Assembly (NCBI RefSeq): GCF_014270105.1
Contig: NZ_JACNMF010000001.1
Coordinates: 923,560 to 987,559 of the forward strand
Direction of reading: 5' to 3'
Length of the DNA: 64,000 nt
Source: Hyunsoonleella aquatilis
Lineage (GTDB): Bacteria; Bacteroidota; Bacteroidia; Flavobacteriales; Flavobacteriaceae
In this document: in pieces, positions 16,300 through 52,815 of the stretch
Numbering within the stretch: position 1 is the first letter of the stretch
How the letters are laid out: the number at the start of each line of letters is the position of its first letter
Notes under the pieces: generated by a model
Told to the model about the DNA's origin: nothing
The model's database searches: none
The model's input: only the letters and a program-made list of their open reading frames with translations
Program-made: the position numbers and the translations under genes

Positions 16300-16331
16300 C
16301 CCGAAAGCTCCCGATAGCTATCGGGACGGGA
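16300..16331. repeat. TCCCGATAGCTATCGGGA palindrome
   Basis: A perfect 18-base palindrome lies at 16309-16326, between the cold-shock and DUF721 genes, preceded by a further CCCGAAAGC copy of the half-site. The same palindrome occurs at 52779-52796 and, imperfectly, at 3203-3220 and 38159-38176. Confidence 0.75.
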
Positions 16332-38923: not shown

Positions 38924-39529
38924 TTAGAGTTTTTCGTTGATTATGGTTCTTACAATATCTATGGCCACAGTGTTATAATGGTTGTTCGGGATAATGATAT
39001 CCGCGTATTCTTTCATTGGTTCAATAAACTGATCGTGCATGGGTTTTAGTGTGGTTTGGTACCTAGTGAGTACTTCGTCCAAGTCCCGTCCCCGTTCCGA
39101 AATATCACGCTTTAGTCGCCGTATCAATCGTTCGTCACTATCGGCATGCACAAATATTTTGACGTCAAACATATCCCGAAGTTCGGGATTGGTGAGAATC
39201 AAAATACCTTCAACAATCATCACTTTTCTGGGTTGCGTAATAATGGTATCCCCGGTTCTATTATGTTTAACGAAGGAATACACGGGTTGGTGTATCGCCT
39301 TACCTTTTTTTAGCGCTTTCAAATGCTTCACCAGTAAGTCGAAATCGATACTTCGTGGGTGGTCAAAATTGATATTTACGCGCTCGTCATAGCTTAAGTG
39401 GGAGGTATCTTTATAATAGGAGTCTTGCGAAATTACGCCAACCTCACCTTCAGGCAACTCTATTAGCAACTGGTTGACTACCGTTGTTTTGCCACATCCT
39501 GTACCTCCAGCTATTCCTAAAATTAGCAT
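38924..39529 (-). CDS. udk: Uridine kinase
   Basis: The 201-residue protein has a P-loop GGTGCGKT (residues 8-15) and the uridine kinase segments VISQDSYYKD, NFDHPRSIDFDLL and PVYSFVKHNRTG. It phosphorylates uridine and cytidine in pyrimidine salvage. Length is normal. It is the first gene of a minus-strand operon that continues with FtsB/DivIC and the methylmalonyl-CoA mutase genes, all overlapping or abutting. Confidence 0.93.
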   Translation of the reverse strand: MLILGIAGGTGCGKTTVVNQLLIELPEGEVGVISQDSYYKDTSHLSYDERVNINFDHPRSIDFDLLVKHLKALKKGKAIHQPVYSFVKHNRTGDTIITQPRKVMIVEGILILTNPELRDMFDVKIFVHADSDERLIRRLKRDISERGRDLDEVLTRYQTTLKPMHDQFIEPMKEYADIIIPNNHYNTVAIDIVRTIINEKL

Positions 39530-46545: not shown

Positions 46546-46587
46546 ATTATTTAAAAATATGTTTTCTTTGAAAACTATTTTTAAAAT

Positions 46588-46638
46588 CGGGATGTGGCGC
46601 AGTCCGGTTAGCGTATTACGCCAGGGCGTAATGGTCGC
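46588..46638 (+). pseudogene. Truncated tRNA-Pro (5' three-quarters) upstream of GIY-YIG gene
   Basis: The first 28 bases (46588-46615) are identical to the 5' end of the intact tRNA-Pro at 46896: acceptor strand, D arm and base 26. The anticodon arm is different, reading TTACGCCAGGGCGTAA, a perfect 7-bp palindrome with a 2-base gap instead of a normal 7-base anticodon loop. TGGTCGC (variable region) again matches. The T arm and 3' acceptor strand are missing. It cannot form a mature tRNA. All five anticodon-stem pairs differ from the neighbour yet remain paired, so it is not simple decay of the adjacent gene. Confidence 0.85.
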
Positions 46639-46947
46639 TTTCTAAACAATTTTAGAATGGATTATGCGGTTTATATCCTTTTTAGTGAGAAGCTGAATCG
46701 CTATTACTGTGGGCATACAAACGATGTAGAGAAACGTTTGGATACGCATAATAGCGGAGGTAAAAAATACACAACCAAGGGCATGCCTTGGGTTTTAATA
46801 AAAGTATATCATTGCAGTTCGCGTTCGGAGGCTGTGCGATTGGAAAGAAAAGTAAAAAAGAGAGGTATACAAAGGTACCTTGATGAAAATTAATTCGGGA
46901 TGTGGCGCAGTCCGGTTAGCGTACACGGCTGGGGGCCGTGTGGTCGC
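46639..46947 (+). mobile_element. Candidate tRNA-targeting GIY-YIG element
   Basis: The sequence between the two TGGTCGC motifs (46632-46638 and 46941-46947) is 309 bases long. It contains a 7-bp hairpin, one GIY-YIG nuclease gene, and a new tRNA-Pro 5' part that joins to the T arm and acceptor end at 46948-46970. Removing this stretch would restore one uninterrupted tRNA-length sequence with the other anticodon arm. That is the structure expected of an element that inserts in a tRNA gene and supplies a replacement. The boundaries are inferred from the repeats and no mechanism is demonstrated. Confidence 0.4.
46657..46893 (+). CDS. Small GIY-YIG nuclease (UPF0213/YhbQ-like)
   Basis: The 78-residue protein is a single GIY-YIG domain. 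It has VYILFSEKLNRYYCGHT (GIY and YIG elements, Tyr6 and Tyr17, Gly19), the catalytic Arg27 in VEKRLDTHNSG with His31, and the metal-binding Glu63 in VRLERKVKK. No additional DNA-binding domain is present. The gene lies between a truncated and an intact tRNA-Pro: 18 bases after the fragment and 2 bases before the intact tRNA. Its start codon overlaps a 7-bp hairpin (TTCTAAA / TTTAGAA, 46640-46657). No Shine-Dalgarno is visible. It is likely read from the tRNA transcript. Confidence 0.85.
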   Translation: MDYAVYILFSEKLNRYYCGHTNDVEKRLDTHNSGGKKYTTKGMPWVLIKVYHCSSRSEAVRLERKVKKRGIQRYLDEN

Positions 46948-46970
46948 AGGTTCAAATCCTGTCATCCCGA
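46896..46970 (+). tRNA. tRNA-Pro (anticodon GGG)
   Basis: A full cloverleaf of 75 bases is seen. The acceptor is CGGGATG / CATCCCG and the D stem is GCGC / GCGT. The anticodon stem is CACGG / CCGTG with loop CTGGGGG (anticodon GGG). The T arm is GCAGG TTCAAAT CCTGT, with discriminator A and no encoded CCA. It begins two bases after the GIY-YIG stop codon and is followed by a strong terminator hairpin. Confidence 0.95.
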
Positions 46971-46977
46971 CTAAGTA

Positions 46978-47012
46978 AAAAAAACCATTCATTTTATGAA
47001 TGGTTTTTTTTT
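46978..47012. terminator. Bidirectional terminator after tRNA-Pro
   Basis: AACCATTCAT and ATGAATGGTT pair around a 3-base loop, with an A run before and a T run after. It can stop transcription of the tRNA on the plus strand and of the GIN-domain gene on the minus strand. Confidence 0.85.
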
Positions 47013-48110: not shown

Positions 48111-48173
48111 ATTCCCGTTTGCACGGGAATGACAATTTCATAGGAAACCCCGACGCAGAGCGTCGAGGAATTC
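48111..48173. repeat. ATTCCCG / GACGC dispersed repeat
   Basis: A perfect inverted repeat ATTCCCGTTTGCACGGGAAT (48111-48130) is followed by GACA, then by a GACGC / GCGTC stem (48151-48165). It is the GGAATGACA-type intergenic element, related to 25561-25637. The rest of the 256-base gap holds one AACCAC/GTGGTT pair and no gene. Confidence 0.65.
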
Positions 48174-52704: not shown

Positions 52705-52815
52705 CGAACTTTGCGCCTTGGCGTCTTTGCGAGAAAATTTTATGCAGAAGTTTTCAGTTAACACGTTTTGGAATTTAGTCCCGATAGCTATCGGGATTGA
52801 ATATTGGAATTTGGT
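52705..52815. repeat. Two dispersed repeats in the DUF4442-AIM24 gap
   Basis: TTTGCGCCTTGGCGTCTTTGCGAGA (about 52713-52735) is a copy of the repeat at 24574-24628 without its palindromic insert. TTGGAATTT followed by TCCCGATAGCTATCGGGA (52779-52796) and ATATTGGAATTTG copies the element at 3186-3236. The two repeat families stand side by side. Confidence 0.65.

Follow-up and report, generated by a model that had tools for sequence, protein, structure and literature searches.

A candidate minimal selfish element at tRNA genes of Bacteroidota: a single-domain GIY-YIG nuclease gene with an arm-swapped partial tRNA copy

A nuclease gene of the single-domain GIY-YIG type, joined to a truncated copy of a host tRNA gene in which one or more arms have been exchanged for a palindrome, probably constitutes a minimal selfish element. 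The unit was analysed in a 64,000-nucleotide stretch of the Hyunsoonleella aquatilis genome (hereafter the window), where it accompanies a tRNA-Pro(GGG) gene, and its relatives were followed through the family and the phylum. The locus comprises the following features, in window coordinates.

46560..46587, + strand: promoter-like stretch (TGTTTTCTTTGAAAAC..), a putative promoter that abuts the partial tRNA copy
46588-46638, + strand: partial copy of tRNA-Pro(GGG) as a whole, stopping before the T arm
46588..46615, + strand: nucleotides 1-28 of tRNA-Pro(GGG), an identical direct repeat of 46896-46923
46616..46631, + strand: palindrome P (TTACGCCAGGGCGTAA; 7-bp stem, 2-nt loop), which replaces the anticodon arm
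46632..46638, + strand: TGGTCGC, the tRNA part 3' of the anticodon arm, with the same letters in the intact gene; the copy ends here
46657..46893, + strand: GIY-YIG nuclease ORF, 78 aa, single domain, motif residues conserved (ORF list, Pfam)
46896..46971, + strand: intact host-type tRNA-Pro(GGG) (ARAGORN, Rfam, comparison with congeners)
46977..47011, + strand: terminator-like hairpin 3' of the tRNA (sequence scan)

A sequence-only reading of this DNA had described a partial and an intact tRNA-Pro with a GIY-YIG gene between them, and that observation is confirmed: the copy begins with nucleotides 1-28 of the tRNA, TGGTCGC is common to both tRNA parts and the ORF stops two bases 5' of the intact gene. 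The interpretation built on it is partly supported. It took the middle of the partial copy for the anticodon arm of an older tRNA, but this part is a 7-bp hairpin of a recurring type with a 2-nt loop rather than an ordinary 7-nt anticodon loop. The intact tRNA is the window's single tRNA (ARAGORN; Rfam at gathering scores). Between the partial copy and the intact tRNA, the nuclease gene is the sole plus-strand ORF of at least 50 aa, which argues against an integrase-carrying tRNA island; a group I or group II intron in a tRNA was likewise rejected, as the Rfam matches at gathering scores in the window and 19 loci were to tRNA alone. A stretch similar to 46560..46587 lies directly 5' of tRNA-Pro in three congeners with empty sites (L084, L085 and L097), and from its Bacteroidota -7 motif we take it to be the promoter; a sigma-70 scan found no promoter on the plus strand for this stretch. 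Separately, a minus-strand ORF at 46795-46992 (GMTGFEPATTRPP...) is mostly tRNA read in reverse and may get annotated as a protein.

Close homologues of the nuclease (protein search, E ≤ 1e-12) were found in 64 of 397 genomes of the family, with many matches spaced 300-470 bp apart. All listed homologue places were retrieved and then grouped into 81 clusters, 70 of which have an intact tRNA on the same strand within 450 bp and none of which (0 of 81) has a tRNA on the opposite strand. The nearest tRNA types include Pro, His, Val, Asn, Arg, Ser, Asp, Leu, Met and Ala. Among the remaining clusters, L013 has a same-strand tRNA at 495 bp, outside the limit; L009, L015, L021, L045, L052 and L072 have tRNA copies with no intact tRNA in reach, mostly at contig ends; and L026 and L074 have tRNA 3' fragments. 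Nothing tRNA-like was seen by inspection in L050 and L063, so that a nuclease gene without flanking tRNA parts, the outcome that the sequence-only reading had named as contrary to a link with the tRNA, holds for just 2 of 81 clusters. Together with the empty and filled sites within one genus described below, these figures bear out its proposal that the unit is tied to the tRNA. An ordinary tRNA duplication that happened to enclose an unrelated gene is accordingly next to impossible as an explanation: tRNA duplications are common, but the same tRNA test picks out 126 of 20,000 random 240-bp stretches (0.63%; drawn from 464 kb of the own genome), and chance neighbourhood is refuted by this difference.

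Across the phylum, a profile built from 36 nuclease sequences (A1) matched 153 of 296 genomes at E ≤ 1e-12. Of 29 loci sampled across the phylum, 26 had a same-strand tRNA; the sample includes two duplicates of family loci (L220 and L233) and, because the profile was built from the tRNA-anchored class, favours that class. The window's protein had no match in plasmids, phages or viral contigs, and carriage on known phages or plasmids was rejected on this ground. At such frequencies, the gene may be among the smallest and most widespread types of selfish gene in Bacteroidota, lodged at essential genes.

The elements follow two plans. In the 5' type, to which the window belongs, the order is partial copy, nuclease gene and intact tRNA; in the 3' type, an intact tRNA and its terminator are followed by the nuclease gene and a duplicate of the 3' part of the tRNA, to which a trailer and a terminator are often attached. 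At the 32 loci of the 5' type, copy and tRNA mostly become identical near tRNA nucleotide 1, with some 6-25 extra shared bases upstream in several, and at the 30 loci of the 3' type the identity often continues 30-45 bp beyond the tRNA, through the terminator, to about the start of the nuclease gene, although it stops at once in several of the 30 and runs on in a few. Loci duplicating another locus were dropped from this comparison (19 identifiers) and from two other locus comparisons (16 and 15 identifiers). The 3' plan was also found in Desulfoferrobacter and in a Melioribacteraceae genome. Insertion at the border of variable loop and T arm, which had been proposed for the window, thus does not hold as a general rule, since a good many elements sit behind the tRNA and duplicate its 3' part.

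Tandem arrays are frequent: 19 of the 81 clusters contain at least two nuclease copies (each of at least 100 nt), a count that leaves out two clusters with one broken gene or short piece. Array copies mostly differ by few or no bases, with older ones in L073, L074 and L075, and stop codons interrupt some copies in L026, L037, L047 and L074. One tRNA-Asn array (L065) holds two highly divergent nuclease copies (pS 0.87), which may have reached this tRNA independently of each other. Partial tRNA copies in tandem, with a palindrome in several and no nuclease gene between the units, were also observed at L055, L077, L245, L012 and L013.

The palindrome in the partial copy replaces whole arms of the tRNA. 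We mapped 52 palindrome events at 46 loci, excluding native tRNA arms and palindromes shorter than 12 nt, and in 35 of these the anticodon arm or the T arm was replaced to within 2 nt at both ends, against 7.2 of 52 expected, and at most 18, under random placement (5,000 simulations). Replacement was exact to the base in 18 events, where 0.7 were expected. Arm-fitting events occur at Pro, Val, Arg, Lys and Asp tRNAs; the other 17 events fit no arm. As either the anticodon arm or the T arm may be the one replaced, the proposed border is not a general site in this respect either.

Base pairing within the palindrome is conserved. At 19 loci of the Pro-GGG type (14 from the mapping and five read by eye), every cell for the six outer pairs (114 of 114) is Watson-Crick; this is partly so by construction, because the mapped ones were found as palindromes. 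Three of the six outer pairs differ on both sides between loci, a compensatory change, and none of 2,000 shuffles reached the observed pairing. The pattern TC(C/A)CG...CG(G/T)GA fits 37 of 50 listed palindromes, including that of Desulfoferrobacter, and the window's TTACG...CGTAA is a variant of it. Over the first eight palindrome bases, similarity was 0.707 within a tRNA type versus 0.574 between types, a result matched in 0 of 2,000 label shuffles; L072 is among the 50 palindromes of this comparison and absent from the pairing set of 19. ARAGORN miscalls some of these copies, taking L072:482-557 for a tRNA-Phe and L075:1510-1578 for a stop-codon tRNA (orientation with the nuclease on the plus strand), and palindrome-bearing copies may therefore get annotated as real tRNA genes.

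A conserved hairpin just upstream of an ORF could also be read as host regulation, with the partial tRNA serving as a structured mRNA leader of a domesticated nuclease. The position of the 5'-type copy and the conservation of the hairpin in 19 loci agree with such a role, but the 3'-type copy lies downstream of the ORF and the unit is patchy within one genus (present in 2 of 12 genomes), and we regard a leader function as improbable.

To a large extent, each nuclease clade keeps to one kind of tRNA. On a tree of 86 nucleases, which rests on few columns and is partly unresolved, and with vertical descent of some loci contributing to the pattern, tRNA type changes 22 times, compared with a mean of 56.3 and a minimum of 48 in 300 shuffles (82 rows), and the side of the tRNA changes nine times, compared with a mean of 25.4 and a minimum of 18 in 300 shuffles (76 rows). 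L051, L052, L053, L081 and L133 were left out of the tree as short or broken proteins, and labels were set by hand for 12 clusters and 10 further rows.

Filled and empty sites coexist among close relatives. The trxB gene lies upstream of tRNA-Pro(GGG) in 12 of 12 genomes of the window's genus, and the comparison suggested by the sequence-only reading did reveal empty sites there: two genomes are filled, two (G399 and G400) hold a relic, a partial copy without nuclease, and eight have no recognisable copy, with relics and empty sites judged by eye and with the contig of one of the eight (G398) ending inside the tRNA. Eight Flavobacterium tRNA-Pro(TGG) loci that share their upstream region, among 20 retrieved from 35 matches, include one with a 3' element, one with a 5' element, one relic and five empty sites (relic and empty sites again by eye).

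These comparisons bear directly on the interpretation given in the sequence-only reading, a homing-type insertion that rebuilt the tRNA with a new 5' part and so swapped the anticodon arm of its target. The direct repeats of tRNA nucleotides 1-28 are what such an event would leave, and it suits the 5' type of the window. However, in both filled genomes of the genus the intact tRNA has the anticodon arm CACGGCTGGGGGCCGTG, as in empty congeners (the arm differs at one stem base in L092 and L094, two congeners without the element), and in a second genus the intact tRNA has the same arm in a filled genome (G243) and an empty one (G012). These comparisons give no support to an exchange of the target's own arm: the working tRNA keeps the host arm, and it is the partial copy that carries the replaced one. 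Elements of the 3' type, moreover, carry the opposite half of the tRNA. We consider this scenario largely refuted and very improbable, and retain the selfish element with an arm-swapped partial copy as the preferred reading.

Among four loci with trxB upstream, the nuclease has a dN of 0.17-0.33 and saturated or nearly saturated synonymous sites, which suggests, at the level of sequence comparison, that the protein is under purifying selection. Synonymous-site dating gave no date owing to this saturation, and because the synonymous sites of trxB are at or near saturation as well, long vertical descent with many losses may explain the patchy distribution in place of recent transfer.

The protein itself is little more than a catalytic domain. 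PF01541 matches it at 62.2 bits (cut-off 22.6) and fills residues 3-69 of its 78 aa; the second Pfam match is a weak T5orf172 over the same residues, and no further Pfam domain was found. All 36 members of the A1 set match PF01541 at E ≤ 0.001, and Y17, G19, R27, H31 and E63, which we take to have catalytic roles, are invariant across them. The predicted structure has a pLDDT of 94.4, and the closest solved structures by sequence and fold are UPF0213 (PDB 1zg2) and Slx1 (PDB 7cq3 and 6seh). The single domain and the invariant residues suggest that the protein is an active enzyme, and it may read DNA shape more than long sequence. Phage SegB has two parts, a catalytic one and a C-terminal DNA-binding one, and an enzyme of that build was rejected here as the domain leaves no room for the second; a Y1 HUH transposase of the RAYT type was rejected because Pfam returned GIY-YIG and the weak T5orf172 alone.

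Small GIY-YIG genes also occur away from tRNAs. PF01541 matches 11 times in the own genome (E ≤ 0.001), and eight of these matches are small stand-alone genes. Three of the eight are next to tRNA genes (one at Pro, one at Leu-CAA and one enclosed by tRNA-Val genes); the other five (L112-L115 and L118) lie elsewhere, flanked by repeats that look palindromic and hairpin-forming by eye, and in L115 an approximately 80-bp repeat stands on either side of the gene. Flank-shared repeats were found at 8 of 8 small genes, to a degree met by 9-28 of 3,000 random sites. In the 464 kb (11.8%) of the own genome that were searched, the repeats of L113 and L118 have two and four further copies, respectively, and those of L112, L114 and L115 none, so that membership of a dispersed family is not established for all five. 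In 15 other genomes of the family, 24 of 39 small GIY-YIG loci have flank repeats (p ≤ 0.01 versus cross-locus pairs) and 15 have none, and nine of the 39 have a same-strand tRNA. A common plan, a nuclease gene flanked by two hairpin-bearing repeat copies, covers both the tRNA-anchored and the palindrome-anchored loci, and because the genes away from tRNAs are flanked by palindromic repeats, the tRNA copy seems to act as such a repeat.

Palindromes of this kind are abundant in the same genomes. TCCCG(N0-12)CGGGA occurs 167 times in the own genome, compared with 18 for the reversed pattern, and enrichment of at least twofold was seen in 20 of 20 A1-rich genomes versus 10 of 20 without an A1 match (p = 2e-4), a comparison confounded by phylogeny; Flavobacterium genomes without A1 matches are also enriched. 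The window has four such palindromes (16309-16326, 39174-39188, 48113-48128 and 52779-52796) where 0.31 would be expected.

Nucleases of the Neisseria Ssn family are reportedly site-specific single-strand GIY-YIG enzymes that go with palindromic NTS repeats. Our loci resemble them in combining a small GIY-YIG protein with a palindromic repeat, a putative cognate found on both sides of the gene, and the five non-tRNA genes of the own genome have a similar layout; here, by contrast, the repeat can be a palindrome-bearing tRNA copy attached to a working tRNA. A function of the Ssn kind without mobility is accordingly a rival to the selfish element: a site-specific single-strand cutter whose cognate hairpin is tRNA-derived by chance, which limits uptake or recombination at the locus and spreads passively by transformation and recombination. 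The bracketing of small GIY-YIG genes by repeats and the similarity of P to the genome's dispersed palindromes speak for it. By itself, however, it leaves unexplained the loyalty of clades to mostly one tRNA type, the tandem amplification and the finding that a single syntenic tRNA can carry the element on either side, and we hold it to be rather unlikely.

Other known systems share single traits with the element. RAYT/REP systems consist of a nuclease-type gene between hairpin repeats, with gene-free copies, as do the loci described here, but they use a Y1 HUH transposase and not a tRNA-anchored GIY-YIG protein. At tRNA-gene islands and in the RtT repeats of E. coli, a tRNA segment likewise recurs, either at the border of the element or as tandem repeats; in our case, there is no integrase, either half of the tRNA is usable and a palindrome lies inside the copy. 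UPF0213 and Slx1 are nearest by sequence and fold, and Slx1 acts on branched DNA (PDB 6seh), although its chains have about 300 residues and a partner, Slx4, whereas the 78-aa protein here stands alone.

The closest parallel is SegB. SegB is a free-standing GIY-YIG homing endonuclease of T-even phages that adjoins tRNA genes and cuts in them, with recombination leading to tandem amplification of tRNA and nuclease genes (PMC13096335). The shared traits are a GIY-YIG gene beside tRNA genes of many isotypes and tandem arrays (PMC13096335), together with the presence/absence polymorphism seen here in the window's genus and in Flavobacterium. Our elements differ in lying on bacterial chromosomes, in encoding a 78-aa, single-domain protein, in clades that keep mostly to one tRNA type, and in having arm-swapped partial copies and both 3' and 5' topologies. 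SegB is, by analogy, an experimental precedent for tRNA-gene cutting and array formation by a GIY-YIG enzyme. Chromosomal GIY-YIG genes bracketed by tRNA copies were not found in ranked results from open-licence full-text literature, where SegB was the sole relevant case and where the comparison included passages of the 2006 GIY-YIG superfamily paper (PMC1564403); in that literature, we did not find the chromosomal tRNA-anchored form, arm-swapped copies or fidelity to a tRNA type described.

The element lodges at one kind of tRNA gene. In the 5' type it occupies the gap that separates the promoter from the tRNA, in the 3' type it follows the terminator of the tRNA, and so the working tRNA is kept. 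For the selfish element, we propose the following course. The nuclease would recognise the hairpin DNA of the tRNA or palindrome repeat and nick or cut there, and recombinational repair between tRNA repeats would then copy the unit, giving rise to adjoining tandem arrays and to entry into empty alleles. Several observations weigh against this reading: P-type palindromes are enriched in many genomes lacking an A1 match, 17 of the 52 palindrome events fit no arm, two clusters show no tRNA part, and the window's protein was not found in plasmids, phages or viral contigs. A wider proposal is more tentative and in our view doubtful: GIY-YIG nucleases of a single domain, with hairpins in general as their substrate, might form a separate class of mobile DNA, exchanging whole tRNA arms for palindromes at the stem base and spreading the dispersed TCCCG...CGGGA palindromes of Bacteroidota as well as the units anchored at tRNAs. 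If so, this class would be the GIY-YIG counterpart of RAYT/REP, with an agent that had previously gone unnamed. The tRNA-anchored elements themselves connect small GIY-YIG nucleases with tRNA hairpins and with the palindromes dispersed in bacterial genomes, in a direct way that can be tested, and their clades, each largely tied to one tRNA type, make up a natural collection of enzymes with which hairpin-specific cutting can be studied.

Nuclease-free mini-copies were also observed in the own genome, where tRNA-Phe and tRNA-Trp are each closely preceded by a piece of tRNA 5' sequence that bears a TCCCGATAGCTATCGGGA-type palindrome in its D loop, and a palindrome of this type without a tRNA piece lies before tRNA-Leu(TAG).

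L150:7195, L157:1409 and L149:5616, own genome: sites of these mini-copies and of the lone palindrome

The mini-copy form with the D-loop palindrome is rare (2 of 100 genomes). At L161:9308 and at L150:748 and 2889 of the own genome, a palindrome of this kind sits, by eye, inside the apparent loop of a different hairpin repeat, as though one hairpin were nested within another.
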